Shown here: one piece after another, positions 7,253 to 14,186 of the stretch
Layout: each line of letters starts with the position of its first letter
How positions within the stretch are numbered: position 1 is the first letter of the stretch
NCBI GenBank assembly: GCA_028284195.1
Contig: JANQSE010000012.1
Location: 62,001-126,000, forward strand
Length of the DNA stretch: 64,000 bases
Direction: 5' to 3'
DNA from: Balneola sp.
GTDB lineage: Bacteria; Bacteroidota; Rhodothermia; Balneolales; Balneolaceae
Notes under the pieces: generated by a model
Told to the model about the DNA's origin: nothing
Databases searched by the model: none
Seen by the model: only the letters and a program-made list of their open reading frames with translations
Program-made: the position numbers and the translations under genes

Positions 7253-7309
7253 AGGAGGGATATATAAATGTACTTAGCTATGGAGGTGGCTAAACATGAA
7301 CGATAAATT

Positions 7310-7723
7310 ATGCATAGCATAGATAAAGCTCCGAACATTTTAGAAGAAAACATAGGTTCTATTCATAATATAACTGAATGGGCTTACAAAATGGGTTATA
7401 AGAAGCTCTCCAGGTTTTCATGGGAATTCAGGGATTGTCATGGAATCAGGCCTAGTGAAATTTTTATTGAGAAAAGAGTGAAATGTGTCATTGATTACAT
7501 GAAAGAACACCCCAAGCTTAAAAACTATTGTATTTGTAAAGAATTCGGTTTTGCAAATGAGAAAGCATTATACAAATTTCTTAAAAGACATACCGGCCAA
7601 AGTCCAACCCAGTTGAGAAAAGGGATAACAAAAAGGGATAGTAATTCCATTGGCTTAAACCTTACTGATCACTTATGCTTTTTTGGTTTTTGCAAAAGTG
7701 TATCTGCATGGACCAAGTTATAG
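7310..7723 (+). CDS. AraC-type HTH protein, probably interrupted at its 5' end
   Basis: 137 residues with two AraC-like helix-turn-helix units. The first is ITEWAYKMGYKKLSRFSWEF followed by HGIRPSE, the second ICKEFGFANEKALYKFLKRH followed by TGQSPTQLR. No ligand-binding domain is present. A perfect ribosome site (AGGAGG, 7253-7258) stands 9 bp before an ATG at 7268 in the same frame, but TAA at 7304-7306 stops that reading after 12 codons. Translation could restart at 7310, or the gene is a nonsense mutant. The C-terminus overlaps the next gene by 16 bp. It is probably the regulator, or former regulator, of the propeller cluster. Confidence 0.55.
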   Translation: MHSIDKAPNILEENIGSIHNITEWAYKMGYKKLSRFSWEFRDCHGIRPSEIFIEKRVKCVIDYMKEHPKLKNYCICKEFGFANEKALYKFLKRHTGQSPTQLRKGITKRDSNSIGLNLTDHLCFFGFCKSVSAWTKL

Positions 7724-8043
7724 TTAATTATCTGAAATATCTCGGTATCCTTGTCTCGGAGGCATACTGCAAAAAGGCTGTTCTATCGCATCCTGATTAT
7801 TCCTCTTTACTCAGTATATCAGATGTGTTGCAACGATTGGGCATCCCTTGCCAGATTGGCCGAATTGAAGAGAGGTATCTTCCTAAAGTGGAATTCCCTT
7901 TTTTAATACAAATGGAAAACTCAGGAGAGTTAGTTCAAATAACCAAGAGAACAGATTTTGAAAAAAATGAGCTTGATTTTCTGAATAGTCAATGCGAAAA
8001 TTTTCCATTAAAATTTAATTATAAGTTTGATGACGCATATTAG
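7708..8043 (+). CDS. C39-like domain protein without catalytic cysteine motif
   Basis: 111 residues from the ATG at 7708; a longer start at 7675 is possible but overlaps the HTH gene more. The core LSHPDYSSLLSISDVLQRLG and the following FPFLIQM...GELVQI segment match the C39-like domain that opens vitamin-K-epoxide-reductase/thioredoxin fusion proteins of Bacteroidota-type bacteria. The QxDCG motif of true C39 proteases is absent, and so are the VKOR and thioredoxin parts. It may be a non-catalytic leader-binding domain or the remnant of a larger protein. It overlaps the first propeller gene by 14 bp, so the two are translationally linked. Confidence 0.6.
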   Translation: MDQVIVNYLKYLGILVSEAYCKKAVLSHPDYSSLLSISDVLQRLGIPCQIGRIEERYLPKVEFPFLIQMENSGELVQITKRTDFEKNELDFLNSQCENFPLKFNYKFDDAY

Positions 8044-9316
8044 AAGAGAGCTTATCTTTTATCTACTAAGTTTTTGTTTTCTTTCTCAATGTTCGAGGAG
8101 CCCAGAGTCAGAAATCGGTGCCTCTAAAAAAAATATTGACTTAAATAGAGAAGAAGAACTATACATGTACAATAGTACATCAAATGAGATACCGAAAAAT
8201 ATCCGTGAGATCGAAAATATTAACGTTTTTCCAGTTGATGCTGAGCCTTCGCATTCAATTAAGCTCATCCCCATTCATAAATATGGAGATACCGAAGAGC
8301 CTTATATTGGATTTGTACTTAGAGCAATTGAAGATATAAATGGTAAATTAATAATTTGGACAGTTAATTCTAGTAATTACAAACAAAGTGTATACATATT
8401 TCACAGTGATGGAACATTTTATAAAAACTTAGGCAGGAATGGGAGAGGTCCGGGCGAATATCTTCACATTAGTAGAATACATGCCAAAAATGACAAAATT
8501 TATGTTCAAGATGGAACCAATAAGTGGTTAAATGAATATTCAACAACTGACTATAGTTTTGTCAAAACTATACGTTTTGAAACATGGAAAAGTAGTCGAG
8601 ATTTAAACTTTGCCTTTGTTGAACCTCGAATGGATGGGAATTTTTTTACAGCATTTATGGACTTTGGACCTAGATTTGGCAGAACAAATGTTGAATATCA
8701 AATCATGGATAGTACAGGTAATACTTTAAATGATGAGCCAATTATACTTCCGGACGCTTTCAAAATTGATGCAGAAACTTCGTTTCAACCAAAAATGCCA
8801 CTAGGGTTTATGGGTGGGAGTATTACTTCTCTCACAACAGAAGACGAAATCTACTACATAAATACACATGACTTTCTAATAAAAAAGTTTGATCAAAAAG
8901 GTGAATATCAATCCAGTATTTATTATCCAATTGAAAGATTACCCCTTGATTTAGATGGTTATGTTAAAAAACAATTATTTAGTCATGATTCACGAGATAT
9001 TAAAAAAGCATTTGCCTCAATGAATCTTGAGCTGCCTAAGGAATTTTCTGGTGTAGAACGAATGGTAGTAGATGATGAAAACAGGATTTGGGTAGCTTTA
9101 CTAAATGGTTCTAACAGTGAATATTATCAGTGGTGGATACTAAAAAAAACCGGGGAACTGCTTGCCAAATTAAAGCTGCCTCGGGAGCAACAGATTTACG
9201 ACATCAAAAACGGGTATTTATACAGCAAAAAGAAGAATGAAGAAACAGACGATGAGTATGTGGTTAAATACAAAATTGAACTTACAGAAAGACACACCAA
9301 AGAACTTGTTAAATAA
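8030..9316 (+). CDS. 6-bladed beta-propeller lipoprotein (copy 1)
   Basis: 428 residues from ATG 8030 (an in-frame TTG lies just before it). A signal peptide ends in the lipobox LSQC, so the mature protein is lipid-anchored in the cell envelope. The family hallmark GRNGRGPGEYLHI sits near residue 140. Repeated four-stranded units with YFPI/YYPIERLPL and a late DDENRIWVALL...WWILKKTGELLAKL support a TolB/NHL-like 6-bladed propeller (the PF17170-type family). It is one of three tandem paralogues. Its last bases start a direct repeat that also follows copy 2 and leads into a tiny gene. Function unknown. Related propellers in Bacteroides often neighbour small secreted peptides, which suggests peptide binding. 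Confidence 0.8.
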   Translation: MTHIRRELIFYLLSFCFLSQCSRSPESEIGASKKNIDLNREEELYMYNSTSNEIPKNIREIENINVFPVDAEPSHSIKLIPIHKYGDTEEPYIGFVLRAIEDINGKLIIWTVNSSNYKQSVYIFHSDGTFYKNLGRNGRGPGEYLHISRIHAKNDKIYVQDGTNKWLNEYSTTDYSFVKTIRFETWKSSRDLNFAFVEPRMDGNFFTAFMDFGPRFGRTNVEYQIMDSTGNTLNDEPIILPDAFKIDAETSFQPKMPLGFMGGSITSLTTEDEIYYINTHDFLIKKFDQKGEYQSSIYYPIERLPLDLDGYVKKQLFSHDSRDIKKAFASMNLELPKEFSGVERMVVDDENRIWVALLNGSNSEYYQWWILKKTGELLAKLKLPREQQIYDIKNGYLYSKKKNEETDDEYVVKYKIELTERHTKELVK

Positions 9317-9401
9317 ACAGGCCCGTTTTACTTGTTCCAGTTAAAAAAACAAGATTAACTATAATTAAACCATAGAGGATTCTGTTATGGAATTTTTAAA
9401 T
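9301..9401 (+). repeat. Direct repeat, copy A (propeller end - hairpin - peptide start)
   Basis: A ~101-bp segment covering the last codons of propeller copy 1, the spacer and the first five codons of the following tiny gene. It matches 10849-10947 closely. Shared blocks include AGAACTTGTTAAATAA (CGAACTTGTTGAATAA in copy B), ACTTGTTCCA, AACTATAATTAAA and GGATTCT followed by the start codon. Inside it, CTTGTT (9331-9336) and AACAAG (9348-9353) can form a small hairpin that is conserved in copy B. Confidence 0.8.
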
Positions 9402-9452
9402 ACTTTAAGCAGCGACTGGTGGCACACATTATCTTGCAGCGCTATGCTATAA
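9387..9452 (+). CDS. 21-residue peptide with MEFLN start (possible leader/precursor)
   Basis: A tiny gene encoding MEFLNTLSSDWWHTLSCSAML. AGAGG lies 8 bp before the ATG. The first five codons and the whole upstream region are shared with the peptide gene at 10933, which supports real translation. A single Cys lies near the end. It may be a truncated bacteriocin/RiPP-like precursor: shifting frame after codon 7 gives a reading with Ala-Thr-Gly-Gly followed by ten residues, which would resemble a double-glycine leader, but this is speculative. It sits between propellers 1 and 2, before a hairpin. Confidence 0.45.
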   Translation: MEFLNTLSSDWWHTLSCSAML

Positions 9453-9471
9453 CTAAATTATCAAAATAAAT

Positions 9472-9525
9472 TCAATTGCGCTAAGTTAGGCAATATATTC
9501 GCTTACATTAGTGCAATTGATTTTT
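9472..9525 (+). terminator. Hairpin with T-run after peptide 1
   Basis: Inverted repeat TCAATTGCGCTAA (9472-9484) and TTAGTGCAATTGA (9508-9520), 12 of 13 pairs, with a 23-nt loop and TTTTT directly after. It ends the first propeller-peptide module and is consistent with an intrinsic terminator or attenuator before propeller 2. Confidence 0.6.
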
Positions 9526-9558
9526 CAAGTTGATTACATCTCAAAATAACTTAGTACA

Positions 9559-10863
9559 ATGAAGGCTAGTGCTTTAATAATATTACATCTATTGACTATT
9601 ATTTTAATTGCTAGTTGCTCTTCAAATAATAAAACTGAACCCTACTACTTCAATAATGCCAAAGACTATGAAAATAACTTAGTTTTTGAAGAAAATGGAA
9701 AGCTTAAAAATATCCTCATACAACCAATAAATGCGGAAGCTCCTTTCGAAGTCTCATTTGTTGACAAAGTGGTTTTTAGCGATGCAGACGAAAATTTTAT
9801 TGGTAGCAAAGAAAACATCGCTGTAGATAAACATAATAATGTATATATAGCTGTTGGAGGGCTCGGTACTATACAATCGATTTATGTTTTTCAACCTGAT
9901 GGGCAGTACATAAAAAATATTGGACGCAAAGGTAGAGGGCCTGGAGAATTTGAAATGCTTTCGAACATCAGCATAAGGTCTGATACCCTCTTTGCTTATG
10001 ATAATATACAGAAGCGAATCACTATTTTCTTTCTTAAGGATGCTAAATCAAATAAAAGTATAGTGCCAGATAGAAGGTCTTTGAATAGGATTGAAGCATT
10101 AGATAATTATTTAGTAAGCTCTGATTTTTATCCAGTTGCAGATGGTAAGATTTTAATGAAATTTAATAAAGCTTCTCTATTTATTAACGCGGTACTAAAG
10201 AAAAAAACGAACAAGACAGAAAAGGATGACAGATGGTTTCGATATTATCTAATTAATGAGGAAGGTGAGGTAGATTCTAATCAAATATTTCAACAAAAAG
10301 ATACCGGTTTTCAAGATGCTTTATCACCTTTTAATGAAAATCGTCTACCTTATGCAAGAAGCACACTGATTTCTATAGGACCTAATGATAAAATCTATTC
10401 AGCCTGGACTGAAGATTTCTTAATAAAAATTTTTAGTCCAAATGGAGAGTATGAAAGAGCCATCTATTTCCCAATAGAAAAAAGTACTCTAAATCCCGAT
10501 AAGATCATTGAAAAATATAAACGCTATCCAATTCCAAAATCTGTTGCGACAGGCGCAGATCACCCTAAGACATGGCCAGCTTTAAATGATATGTTCATTG
10601 ATGACGAAGGTAGAATCTGGGTTTCAACGATTACTGATGATGATGAAAATTATGAATGGTGGATACTTAACAACAAAGGGGAATTGATATCAAAGTTTAA
10701 CTGGCCTGGAAAAAGATTAGATAGGAACATAGAAAGAAAACAGATTAGCCTTGTAAAGAATGGGTACATGTATATACATGAAAAAGACACTCTGACTGAT
10801 GACATTCAAGTAGCAAGATACAGAATAGTTTTTAAAAGAAGAGTAATCGAACTTGTTGAATAA
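9559..10863 (+). CDS. 6-bladed beta-propeller lipoprotein (copy 2)
   Basis: 434 residues with signal peptide and lipobox IASC. It carries the hallmark NIGRKGRGPGEFEML near residue 120 and a late block (DEGRIWVSTITDDDENYEWW) equivalent to that of the other two copies. It is predicted to be a lipid-anchored envelope propeller of the same PF17170-type family. The 3' end carries copy B of the direct repeat and leads into the peptide gene at 10933, so propeller and peptide appear to have duplicated as one module. No ribosome site of strong consensus precedes the ATG. Ligand and role unknown. Confidence 0.8.
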   Translation: MKASALIILHLLTIILIASCSSNNKTEPYYFNNAKDYENNLVFEENGKLKNILIQPINAEAPFEVSFVDKVVFSDADENFIGSKENIAVDKHNNVYIAVGGLGTIQSIYVFQPDGQYIKNIGRKGRGPGEFEMLSNISIRSDTLFAYDNIQKRITIFFLKDAKSNKSIVPDRRSLNRIEALDNYLVSSDFYPVADGKILMKFNKASLFINAVLKKKTNKTEKDDRWFRYYLINEEGEVDSNQIFQQKDTGFQDALSPFNENRLPYARSTLISIGPNDKIYSAWTEDFLIKIFSPNGEYERAIYFPIEKSTLNPDKIIEKYKRYPIPKSVATGADHPKTWPALNDMFIDDEGRIWVSTITDDDENYEWWILNNKGELISKFNWPGKRLDRNIERKQISLVKNGYMYIHEKDTLTDDIQVARYRIVFKRRVIELVE

Positions 10864-10947
10864 GCAAGAGCGGTTTACTTGTTCCAATAAAAAAACAAGG
10901 TCAACTATAATTAAATCAAAAAGGATTCTATCATGGAATTTTTAAAT
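10849..10947 (+). repeat. Direct repeat, copy B
   Basis: Second copy of the 9301-9401 repeat, from the last codons of propeller 2 through the first codons (MEFLN) of the next peptide gene. The hairpin arms CTTGTT (10878-10883) and AACAAG (10894-10899) are conserved. The variable spacer bases between conserved blocks show that this is an old duplication, not an assembly artefact. Confidence 0.8.
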
Positions 10948-11040
10948 GTATTAACAAGAAACGAAATGAGAAATATTAAAGCAGGAAACTGTCGGGTATT
11001 TGCATACGGGGAGTGGGTAGGAGAATGCAGGTGTCTGTAG
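10933..11040 (+). CDS. 35-residue Cys-rich peptide with leader-like N-terminus
   Basis: Encodes MEFLNVLTRNEMRNIKAG followed by NCRVFAYGEWVGECRCL. The first part has the layout of Bacteroidota natural-product/bacteriocin leaders: short, LxxxEMxxIKxG, with Gly-type processing site. The second part is a Cys-containing core. AAGG lies 8 bp upstream of the ATG and is shared with the peptide at 9387. The stop at 11038 seems premature: another frame continues with a Cys-rich tail (next entry). C39 peptidases cleave after double-glycine-type leaders, and one lies 1.4 kb downstream. The site here is Ala-Gly, not Gly-Gly. Function inferred, not shown. Confidence 0.5.
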   Translation: MEFLNVLTRNEMRNIKAGNCRVFAYGEWVGECRCL

Positions 11041-11144
11041 AGGTAGCACAAGCACTGTTTCAGGAACGCGATGATGTAACTGTCTAATGCTGTGCAAGTT
11101 GTGGTGATGGGTCTTTTGAAAATGCAACACCTTGCGAGGCATAG
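11034..11144 (+). pseudogene. Out-of-frame tail of the Cys-rich peptide
   Basis: From 11034 a second frame reads SVEVAQALFQERDDVTV, then TAA (11085-11087), then CCASCGDGSFENATPCEA and TAG. The CC-x-x-C pattern and the smooth continuation from ECRC suggest that the original precursor was about 70 residues long and was broken by one frameshift near 11034 and one nonsense codon. Alternatively the tail is chance, but four cysteines in 18 codons next to a Cys-rich gene is unusual. Confidence 0.4.
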
Positions 11145-11155
11145 CTTCAATTTTT

Positions 11156-11187
11156 AAAAAGTGGAGGCAACCCCTTCACTTTTTTAA
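11156..11187 (+). terminator. Terminator after peptide 2
   Basis: AAAAAGTG (11156-11163) pairs with CACTTTTT (11177-11184), with further G-C pairing inside the loop, and the T-run continues. It separates peptide 2 from propeller 3. Confidence 0.65.
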
Positions 11188-11207
11188 AGCCAACCCAATG
11201 TTAAAGA

Positions 11208-12419
11208 ATGGATTCAAGAATATTATTCATTACATTTTTATTGTTTCTATGTGGGTGCAGCAGTTTTGAAAAGAAACAAGATCTATCAATTCCAGAGTAC
11301 CTGAATAAGTATGATAATCTAACCATCTATTCAGTAGATCAACAAGTAGATTCTATTAAATTGGTCAAAGAAACGACTTTTGAGAGCAATTCCGAAGTTC
11401 TTATTGACGGTTATATAGGTGATTTTGAGGTTGATAACATGAAACGGGTATATATAGAAGGAGGCAGGCCTGGTGCTGTAGGAATTTATGTTTTTAACTC
11501 CGATGGATCATTCTTGAGAAAAATAGGAAGAGCAGGAAGAGGCCCGGGGGAATTTGAAGCCATATCTTCTATCGATATCTTAAACGATCGTTTATATGTA
11601 CTCGATTCCAGGTTACAAAAATTTTCTGTTTTTGACCTGAATACCCATACACATCTTTTCGATGAAACGATTGAAAAACCCGAAGCTTCCAGGGCAGATG
11701 AATTTTCAATAAAAATGAGAGGAAAAGAATTCTTTGCAGTCGATTCAGGCCATTTATTAATGCATTTTCAAGTGCACAATATCTTCAATTTCAATGAATT
11801 TCTATTTACAAGATATTATCAATTAAGCAAAGAAGGCGTAGTTGATTCCAACAAAATACTGGAAGTAAAGAGATATAGCAGTTATAATGCAGAGGGATTT
11901 AATAAACGCAAGTTTCCATTTACAGCTCCTTTTACACGGCACTCTATTTCAGCTATTTCTAAAGATGGGAATATATATACGGTTTGGTCAGAAGATTTTT
12001 TTGTGCGGCTATACGATTCTTATGGAAATTATATGCGCTCGTTTTACTATCCTGTAAAAAAGGCTCCGCTTAATTTAGCCGATGTACCAATCTATAAAGA
12101 GCGAAAAAGAATTATGGCTAAAGAGGGAGTTCCAAAAACCTGGCAGGCTGTTTATACAATAGAATTAGATGACCAAGGACTACTCTGGGTTGCTACGTTA
12201 ACAGCAGATGACTCTACTTTCGACTGGTTTGTGTTAAACGATGTTGGTGAGTTAAAGGCAAAGTTTAGATGGAGCAGGAGAAAAAATACGATATACGTAA
12301 AAAATAAACCCTTGATTAAGATTAAGGATGGATACTTTTATATACACGAAGCCAATGAAAAGCGTGATATAGATCGAATAGTTAAATACAAAATCATTTT
12401 TGAAAAAAGGGATAAATGA
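11208..12419 (+). CDS. 6-bladed beta-propeller lipoprotein (copy 3)
   Basis: 403 residues with lipobox LCGC (Cys17) and the same hallmark as its two upstream paralogues (KIGRAGRGPGEFEAI near residue 110). The late block LDDQGLLWVATLTADDSTFD and the YPVKKAPL motif are also shared. It is predicted to be a lipid-anchored envelope propeller. Unlike copies 1 and 2 it is not followed by the repeat and peptide. Its stop codon overlaps the ATG of the C39 peptidase gene (ATGA), so the two products are translationally coupled and probably act together. Confidence 0.8.
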   Translation: MDSRILFITFLLFLCGCSSFEKKQDLSIPEYLNKYDNLTIYSVDQQVDSIKLVKETTFESNSEVLIDGYIGDFEVDNMKRVYIEGGRPGAVGIYVFNSDGSFLRKIGRAGRGPGEFEAISSIDILNDRLYVLDSRLQKFSVFDLNTHTHLFDETIEKPEASRADEFSIKMRGKEFFAVDSGHLLMHFQVHNIFNFNEFLFTRYYQLSKEGVVDSNKILEVKRYSSYNAEGFNKRKFPFTAPFTRHSISAISKDGNIYTVWSEDFFVRLYDSYGNYMRSFYYPVKKAPLNLADVPIYKERKRIMAKEGVPKTWQAVYTIELDDQGLLWVATLTADDSTFDWFVLNDVGELKAKFRWSRRKNTIYVKNKPLIKIKDGYFYIHEANEKRDIDRIVKYKIIFEKRDK

Positions 12420-12910
12420 GAAACTTTCCACATTACCATCAACTAGACCAAATGGACTGCGGGCCTACCTGCTCAAGAATGGTAGCCAAACATTATGGGC
12501 GTACTTATTCGCTGGAATCCTTACGCAAGCAAAGTGGAATCAGCCGGGAAGGGGTTTCTTTATTAGGGATAAGCGAGGCAGCAGAGAATATCGGGTTCCG
12601 TACGGTAGGAGTAAAACTCACTTCTGAACAATTGTTTAAAGAAGCACCGATGCCATGCATTGTATATTGGAATCAGCAGCATTTTGTGGTGGTATATAAG
12701 ATAAAAGGAGACAAAGTATATATTGCTGACCCTGCTGCGGGCAAGGTGGTATATTCTAAACAAGAACTTTTAAAGTGCTGGTTAAATCACAAAACCGGAT
12801 CTGAAAATAGCGAGATTGCCTTGCTTTTTTATACAACGCCAAAATTTTTTGAGCAAAGTGGCAATGAAAAAGATACTGCAATGCGCCAATACCGGGCTGT
12901 TATGTTATAA
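12416..12910 (+). CDS. Stand-alone C39 cysteine peptidase (bacteriocin-processing type)
   Basis: 164 residues. The C39 domain fills nearly the whole protein: HQLDQMDCGPTC with Gln9 and catalytic Cys15, His89 in WNQQHFVVVY, and Asp105 in IADPAAG. All triad positions are present. In bacteriocin exporters this domain precedes an ABC-transporter membrane and ATPase part of about 550 residues. Here it ends soon after the domain (KFFEQSGNEKDT, typical of the linker) and no transporter follows. It may be a natural single-domain leader peptidase or a truncated exporter. It would cleave leader peptides in the cytoplasm. It overlaps propeller 3 by 4 bp. Confidence 0.82.
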   Translation: MRNFPHYHQLDQMDCGPTCSRMVAKHYGRTYSLESLRKQSGISREGVSLLGISEAAENIGFRTVGVKLTSEQLFKEAPMPCIVYWNQQHFVVVYKIKGDKVYIADPAAGKVVYSKQELLKCWLNHKTGSENSEIALLFYTTPKFFEQSGNEKDTAMRQYRAVML

Positions 12911-12921
12911 GGCAGTTTTTT

Positions 12922-12957
12922 GAAAGAGAAAATCGGAGTTTATTTATTTTCTCTTTC
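12922..12957 (+). terminator. Hairpin closing the propeller/C39 cluster
   Basis: Perfect 12-bp inverted repeat GAAAGAGAAAAT / ATTTTCTCTTTC with a 12-nt loop, 12 bp after the C39 stop codon. Only a short pyrimidine run follows, so termination strength is uncertain, but the position fits an operon end. Confidence 0.6.
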
Positions 12958-13046
12958 TTCGTTGTCATCATTCAACTTGTAAGGACTGCAACTCCTAAGT
13001 TGCAACCAGGCTAAGAACATTCCCATGTCTTCTAAAGATAAAGGGG

Positions 13047-14186
13047 CTATTCTGGCCGGTGCACACAAGTAAAAGTAATATCATCGAGTGGAGCTTCCTG
13101 CCCGATAAAAACCTCGAGTGAGCTTTGTAGCTTTTTTATAATAGTTTTAGCGTGGAGAGAACCATAGATCTCCATCAACGATTGAATACGTTCTTCGCCG
13201 TATTCTTCGCCCCTGTAATTTCGGGCTTCATTCAAACCATCGGTATAGAACAGAACAGAATCGCCTTTTTTGAAATGGAATTTTTTTACTTCGAGATGAT
13301 TTCTGAGAAGGCTACTGCTGGTCATTCCCAATGCAAATCCATCCGCCTTTAGATTAAATGTAGTATCCCTTTCTCTGCTGTAGTACACGGGGATGTTATG
13401 CCCGGCGCGAACATACTCGAATTCTTCTTTATCATTTGGGAAAAACCCAACACATCCTGTTACAAACGTTTTGTCTTTGCTGTTACTTTTAACGAAATCA
13501 TTGAGCTGAATGAAAAGATCTTTGGGGGAAGGATGTTCTTTTGTTACCAGCATATTTACCAGTGCCTGCATTCGCACCATATACAGTGCAGCCGAAAGTC
13601 CTTTACCTGATACGTCTGCAATAACAATATAGGTGCCTTTGTCGGTATCAATCACATCCAGGTAATCACCACCAACTTCTTTAGCAGTATGGGCAAATGA
13701 GTACACTTCAAGATTATCTTTGTTCAGAGAGGTACTGGGAAGTAAGCTCAACTGGATGTCGCGGGCCAGATCAATTTCTTTCTGTACATCCGATTTTTCC
13801 AAAAGTTCTACCAAAAGCAGTAAAAACATAGATACCGCACTAAACGGAAGAAAAAGTTCAGAGAAGAAAATGATTCCCTCAAGCCCAAAAATACTTACGA
13901 GAAAGTGAGCTACAAAACTTACAGAGCCTAATCCGAAAGCAAGTCGTCTGGTAGGGTTCAGGCGTTGAGTAAGGTCAGAAAAAAGGCGAAGGAATTTAAC
14001 ATGCCCTGGCAGATGTTGCCCTTGTGATCGTTCAATGTCTTCAACGGCTTCTTTGTAAAGGAGTTTTAAGCGATCGGTATCGGCTACGAGATCTTTTGAT
14101 ATCCTGTCTTTCGACATCCCGGAAACATATTCCTGATAGAATCTTTTTGTGCCGTAACCTGATTGTGCTTCGTTCTTTAAACTCAA
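13047..14186 (-). CDS. PP2C-family (SpoIIE/RsbU-type) serine phosphatase, membrane-linked
   Basis: 379 residues. The N-terminal ~75 residues are soluble. Two hydrophobic segments (about 83-125: FGLGSVSFVAHFLVSIFGL and FLPFSAVSMFLLLLVELL) anchor it in the inner membrane. The C-terminal phosphatase domain starts with the linker DIQLSLLPS, then has KEVGGDYLDV and IADVSGKGLSAAL with metal-binding Asp/Gly, and ends with FYTDGLNEARN and PLDDITF. RsbU-type PP2C enzymes dephosphorylate anti-anti-sigma (STAS) proteins. No STAS or kinase partner is in this window. It lies 55 bp downstream of the adenosine deaminase gene on the same strand. Confidence 0.85.
   Translation of the reverse strand: MSLKNEAQSGYGTKRFYQEYVSGMSKDRISKDLVADTDRLKLLYKEAVEDIERSQGQHLPGHVKFLRLFSDLTQRLNPTRRLAFGLGSVSFVAHFLVSIFGLEGIIFFSELFLPFSAVSMFLLLLVELLEKSDVQKEIDLARDIQLSLLPSTSLNKDNLEVYSFAHTAKEVGGDYLDVIDTDKGTYIVIADVSGKGLSAALYMVRMQALVNMLVTKEHPSPKDLFIQLNDFVKSNSKDKTFVTGCVGFFPNDKEEFEYVRAGHNIPVYYSRERDTTFNLKADGFALGMTSSSLLRNHLEVKKFHFKKGDSVLFYTDGLNEARNYRGEEYGEERIQSLMEIYGSLHAKTIIKKLQSSLEVFIGQEAPLDDITFTCVHRPE

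Follow-up and report, generated by a model that had tools for sequence, protein, structure and literature searches.

Bacteroidetocin loci consist of four genes and combine a peptide bearing a GG leader with a C39-ABC exporter and a thiol oxidoreductase (Coyne et al., 2019; PMC6671954). Their producers have no immunity protein (PMC6671954), and the target of the peptides is BamA (PMC8546649). GG-leader peptides with C39-ABC exporters have also been described in Bacteroidales, in a study that does not mention propellers (PMC10352776). In V. cholerae, the immunity arrays of the T6SS arose by displacement (PMC5361080). Here, we analyzed a peptide–propeller locus in a stretch of 64,000 nucleotides from a Balneola sp. 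genome (hereafter, the window), and compared it with the intact islands of other Balneolaceae and with these systems.

Gene content of the window locus and of intact islands

A preliminary description of the window had listed an AraC-type regulator, a C39-like domain, three propellers with two small peptide genes between them, and a C39 peptidase. An ORF re-check and a profile search of the window confirmed this gene order and its coordinates (Table 1), together with overlaps between neighbors at three points (7675–7723, 8027–8043, and 12416–12419); with the homologous start of the oxidoreductase ORF, the first overlap is 7708–7723 only. The ORF at 7675–8043 had been called C39-like, which is fair at the domain level, but the protein is the remnant of a VKOR-thioredoxin oxidoreductase. 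It corresponds to residues 1–91 of 535, with 59% identity to the VKOR protein of the genus relative G004 (tblastn, E = 8e-30). Full-length homologs have 535–546 amino acids and contain PF07884 and PF13462, and those of Pedobacter match PF03412 (C39) at the N-terminus.

Table 1. Features of the locus and its right-hand boundary (window positions).
Feature	Position	Strand	Evidence or remark
AraC-type HTH regulator	7310..7723	+	PF12833, E 3e-13
Oxidoreductase remnant	7708..7977	+	Inside ORF 7675-8043; tblastn with G004 VKOR
Propeller 1	8027..9316	+	PF17170, E 1.6e-14; open frame
Remnant peptide gene	9388..9453	+	MEFLNTLS, then unrelated sequence
Propeller 2	9559..10863	+	PF17170, E 3.2e-9; open frame
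Broken peptide gene	10933..11135	+	PSSM leader match; tblastn with G062 peptide
Propeller 3	11208..12419	+	PF17170, E 1.6e-13; open frame
Exporter 5′ part, C39 domain	12416..12910	+	PF03412, 130.8 bits
Rearrangement junction	12878..13046		Exporter fragment joined to SpoIIE-type gene
SpoIIE-type gene	13047-14186	-	Partner at window junction

The AraC regulator of the window was 64–68% identical to a 114-aa regulator of two relatives, G003 and G004 (blastp, loci L077 and L078), where it is the first gene of an intact island. The gene order of intact Balneolaceae islands is AraC, VKOR-thioredoxin, a repeated unit in which a leader plus Cys-rich peptide is followed by a six-bladed propeller lipoprotein, the C39-ABC exporter, and HlyD. 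Between its oxidoreductase and exporter, G003 carries three intact leader peptides (L077 9223–10150). Other genes were observed near these islands. A large RHS-repeat gene (PF05593, DUF6443; L077 14286–17999) lies downstream of the exporter and HlyD of G003. Beside the G004 island, L079 370–3287 contains a second AraC gene, a 150-aa membrane-type protein, a 93-aa ORF resembling a secreted peptide, and an S26 signal peptidase, and is possibly a second small-peptide locus.

The three window propellers scored 54.3, 36.9, and 51.0 bits against PF17170, above its cut-off of 22.9. Propellers 1 and 2 have lipoprotein-like N-termini (LLSFCFLSQC and LIASC, respectively), and a crude rule recognized a lipobox in 75 of 146 propellers. 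The AlphaFold2 model of propeller 3 (pLDDT 91.6, pTM 0.88) was a six-bladed β-propeller with an N-terminal signal helix. Foldseek placed B. fragilis BF0058, NHL propellers, and a Bacteroides DUF4221 protein nearest to it among solved folds, with the BtuG surface lipoproteins lower in the ranking. Judged from this predicted structure, no neighbor settles the function of the propellers.

Split exporter and loss of production

The last gene of the locus had been described as a C39 peptidase. The C39 domain is present, but the ORF of 164 aa keeps only residues 1–154 of a C39-ABC exporter of approximately 729 residues, including the catalytic residues C15, H89, and D105 (conserved columns). In 92 family genomes, the best relatives of the exporter were open frames of 729–740 aa, with the C39, ABC membrane, and ABC ATPase domains in one protein; the combination of membrane and ATPase domains expected of a PCAT was thus found in the relatives and not in the window genome. 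Exporter residues 156–341 sit on another contig of the same genome (C4) and are 88% identical to the G004 exporter, the gene being cut between codons 154 and 156. The C4 fragment is flanked by the genes for a transketolase and an RND pump, and related RND genes adjoin the island in G004 and G001. When the contigs of the genome were searched, neither exporter residues 342–729 nor HlyD was found. The preliminary description had advised a search for a full-length C39-ABC exporter elsewhere in this genome, and there is none: the genome has one C39 domain only, and the other ABC matches were low-identity general exporters or ATPases.

The partner of the window junction is on C4 (L105 10347–10520). 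In G003 and G007, the transketolase and SpoIIE genes are convergent neighbors, 23–66 bp apart. Both junctions carry a 12-nt identity, CTGCAATGCGCC, in inverted orientation, and it falls inside a match of approximately 40 nt between the junctions (score 30, compared with 28 for the best of 500 shuffles). Taking the arrangement of G003 as the reference, one inversion would account for both joins. An excised 143-kb circle was also considered as the cause of the split, and was rejected because the contig ends do not overlap and one inversion explains the G003 arrangement.

The peptide genes of the window are also damaged. The Cys-rich peptide ORF at 10933–11040 is present as described, but it is only the front half of a frame-broken gene, with an intact leader (MEFLNVLTRNEMRNIKAG) and the front of the core. 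The rear of the core (CCASCG..FENATPC) is in a different frame at 11034–11135, with an in-frame stop, and this segment has 58% identity to a peptide of the genome G062 (tblastn, E = 5e-10). In the ORF at 9388, only the first leader residues (MEFLNTLS) are left and the leader processing site is absent. This remnant has the same 5′ module as the peptide at 10933, and the DNA upstream is also common to the peptides of G003 and G004. The locus had been suspected to be decaying or split, and it is both: the oxidoreductase is cut, the peptides are broken, and the exporter is on two contigs. Every production part in the window is broken, yet all three propellers are open, and this copy is dead for production.

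Two explanations in which the locus, or the island of the strain, is still functional have to be weighed against these observations. In the first, the 164-residue C39 piece, which keeps the catalytic C, H, and D, acts alone on peptides that are exported by another transporter. We regard this as extremely improbable, because both peptide genes are broken, the oxidoreductase is cut, HlyD is absent, and the remainder of the exporter gene is stranded on another contig. In the second, the strain has an intact island, and errors of assembly or sequencing make its genes look broken. The assembly is a draft of 19 contigs, in which a short ORF could be interrupted by a single-base error. However, there are two reciprocal junctions with short inverted identity, the genes at the joins (transketolase and SpoIIE) lie side by side in G003 and G007, the rest of the exporter and HlyD occur nowhere in the genome, and the oxidoreductase and the peptides were damaged independently, so errors of this kind are a very unlikely explanation.

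Pairing of peptides with propellers and its distribution

The preliminary description had proposed a peptide system with a C39-type leader, and a leader profile bore this out in the Balneolaceae relatives. The profile search covered 48 stretches of family genomes (750 kb) and found 61 leader peptides; at the same threshold, a shuffled control gave none. Leaders in the intact relatives have approximately 15–25 residues and end in GG or AG. The MEFLN start is conserved in the genus relatives; in G004, MEFLNVLSREEMRNVKGG is followed by Cys-rich cores, each ahead of a propeller.

Fifty-five of the 61 leader peptides immediately preceded a propeller encoded on the same strand, and 47 of the 169 full propellers had a peptide. 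Across genomes, the similarity of the cores tracked that of the downstream propellers (r = 0.49, 0/5000 permutations within genomes; permuted mean 0.07, SD 0.055), and the best hits of core and propeller agreed in 21 of 50 cases, compared with 4.9 expected. For the 24 peptides flanked by propellers on both sides, r was 0.68 with the downstream propeller (0/5000) and 0.16 with the upstream propeller (106/5000). This indicates that the unit is a peptide and the propeller that follows it, and partner-specific pairs that move as a unit are a feature of effector–immunity arrays. The suggestion that the propellers are specifically linked to the adjacent peptides is therefore supported by both adjacency and covariation in the family genomes. 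The preliminary description would have been abandoned if the propellers of relatives never neighbored short ORFs or C39 genes, and they do adjoin both short ORFs and C39 exporters. Because physical linkage alone could yield covariation between core and propeller, these results show a unit of inheritance, not binding.

Leaders and cores had different histories. Leader similarity was 0.68 within genomes and 0.46 between genomes (0/5000), whereas core similarity was 0.039 and 0.035, respectively (1568/5000). At the DNA level, the leader and the 60 nt upstream were homogenized within genomes, but the core and the 60 nt downstream were not. These results indicate that the cores are mobile and the 5′ module stays in place. 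The leader–core edge might have come from a bias of the leader model, but this was rejected because 5′ DNA outside the model shows the same homogenization.

The arrays also contain fragments of the production genes. Intact exporters usually begin 7–122 nt after a propeller. Inside the arrays we found 13 exporter 5′ fragments, most of them 2–112 nt behind a propeller, a placement like that of the intact junction, along with five HlyD 3′ fragments, mostly ahead of peptides. Both orphan partners (122 of the 169 propellers had no peptide) and displacement scars (the 13 fragments) are marks of effector–immunity arrays, and by analogy the pattern resembles the displacement model of V. cholerae (PMC5361080). 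Strong propellers without a close exporter occurred in 16 genomes and the reverse in G003 only (E ≤ 1e-40), the former count resting on draft assemblies, which can hide exporters. No propeller was detected in the G003 genome despite its three peptides; a cognate partner is thus lacking in one producer, which argues against obligatory immunity. The role of receptors or immunity factors that had been assigned to the propellers is not established, given this genome and the other partner genes found outside the Balneolaceae.

A scan of genome contigs with propeller 3 as the only protein gave no confirmed relative; with the exporter alignment, the search succeeded. In Pedobacter and Mucilaginibacter, the exporter was found at 61–69% identity, with leader peptides, VKOR, and HlyD. 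For 28 of 87 peptides, the following gene encoded a thioredoxin-like lipoprotein; the other genes in this position included an outer-membrane barrel and a glycosyltransferase, and almost never a propeller. With the leader model, which was trained on Balneolaceae leaders and still detected Sphingobacteriaceae leaders well, no leader peptides were found beside the propeller relatives from other families of the order or from the wider class and phylum. Across the genomes examined, these two results point to a pairing that is apparently confined to the Balneolaceae. Lineages without leader peptides also have propellers that stand without a peptide, and the propeller family may serve other functions.

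Individual loci of this wider group had the following features. A peptide of Pedobacter alluvionis (L138 8227–8445) resembles the Balneola GYCCASC core and is followed by a thioredoxin-like lipoprotein in the propeller's place (L138 8507–9994). In Pedobacter, large outer-membrane β-barrel genes (PF14905) come after peptides (L143 6293–9100 and L188 6381–9170) and possibly encode receptors or resistant targets. Peptides also lie beside glycosyltransferase genes (L206 6662–8572 and L186 3429–4595) and a DUF6625 gene (L194 9052–10008), neighbors that may indicate modified forms of this type of peptide.

The thioredoxin-like lipoproteins show that the partner slot can hold a redox protein, and a one-to-one pairing would also suit a dedicated chaperone. 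The propellers might then be periplasmic maturation or folding partners, one holder per peptide class during disulfide formation or outer-membrane crossing. We consider this unlikely: the island already has a VKOR-thioredoxin enzyme, a maturation factor would not be expected to occur so often without a peptide, G003 lacks a propeller despite its peptides, and outer-membrane barrels and glycosyltransferases are among the other genes in the slot. A fairly unlikely alternative is a signaling or display pair, in which a pheromone-like or structural peptide has the propeller as its receptor or anchor and no killing is involved. Antagonism is usually recognized by such marks as high cassette diversity, orphan propellers, and displacement scars, and the mapped islands showed no sensor kinase or comparable relay, although the propellers look lipoprotein-like, an AraC regulator stands at the head of the island, and the solved folds near propeller 3 include small-ligand-binding Bacteroides lipoproteins such as BtuG.

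Proposed role of the propellers and comparison with described systems

Based on these results, we propose that the window locus was once a Balneolaceae island for secreting disulfide-rich peptides, with propellers that would bind the peptides or protect the producer, and that it is now inactivated and split. We give this explanation as a whole about an even chance, and our confidence in the architecture alone is higher. In an intact island, the C39 domain of the exporter would cut the leader at GG or AG during export, and the VKOR-thioredoxin protein would introduce disulfides into the Cys-rich core. After each peptide gene comes its own six-bladed propeller lipoprotein, and core and propeller behave as one exchangeable cassette behind a genome-specific 5′ region and leader; incoming cassettes would displace older ones, so that peptide-less propellers and exporter fragments remain. 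The peptides are probably antagonistic, like bacteroidetocins, and the propeller would bind its peptide in the envelope and protect the producer. Because the working parts are bacteroidetocin-like and the arrays behave like those of antagonistic systems, immunity or peptide binding is the most likely role of the propellers, and we infer that they are cognate peptide-binding lipoproteins, most likely for immunity. The window genome would have retained its three propellers as orphan immunity after the loss of production, or these may have survived neutrally.

A wider proposal is that six-bladed propeller lipoproteins are immunity or peptide-binding proteins of a new class, cognate to a large, cassette-swapping family of disulfide-rich secreted peptides in the Balneolaceae, with unrelated proteins such as thioredoxin-like lipoproteins and outer-membrane barrels filling the slot in other Bacteroidota. 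This is tentative, and we rate its chances somewhat below even. In a literature search with few subscription journals, no paper linked six-bladed propellers to such peptides, and this absence is weak evidence. PF17170 propellers are common in Bacteroidota, and the pairing gives the family a concrete and testable role, with approximately fifty pairs. It also adds a Gram-negative peptide system that bears the marks of effector–immunity arrays, and suggests that peptide systems of this kind, in contrast to bacteroidetocins, may draw their self-protection from unexpected protein families. The window illustrates the death of such an island, in which production disappears first and the partners are left behind.

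Compared with described systems, the propellers share their domain family and fold with PF17170 (DUF5128) proteins such as BF0058 (PDB 4raa), and what is new is that they are paired with leader peptides. The Bacteroidales GG-leader peptides with C39-ABC exporters (PMC10352776) have the same leader type and exporter, although the leaders reported here fall just under both curated cut-offs (NF047798: best score 22.2 against 23.5, with 13.6 for the window peptide; TIGR04149: best score 24.8 against 25). The pairs of Pedobacter and Mucilaginibacter have the same exporter, VKOR, and HlyD, and one Pedobacter core resembles a Balneola core, but a thioredoxin-like lipoprotein or some other gene occupies the position of the propeller. 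With the V. cholerae T6SS arrays, the islands share a constant 5′ region, variable cassettes, orphan partners, and fragments left by sequential displacement; the secretion route and the protein families differ, and immunity is only predicted here. With the bacteroidetocins, they share a short GG-type leader, a Cys-rich mature peptide, a C39-ABC exporter, a dedicated thiol oxidoreductase, and an origin in Bacteroidota. A leader ending in GG or AG beside a C39-ABC exporter and an oxidoreductase (VKOR and thioredoxin) are both found in the intact relatives, whereas in the window the exporter is broken and the oxidoreductase truncated. The likeness described here concerns the working parts of the locus. 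Bacteroidetocin loci have no propeller, while in the Balneolaceae each peptide has its own propeller lipoprotein, the cores are many and unrelated, and the arrays carry displacement scars.
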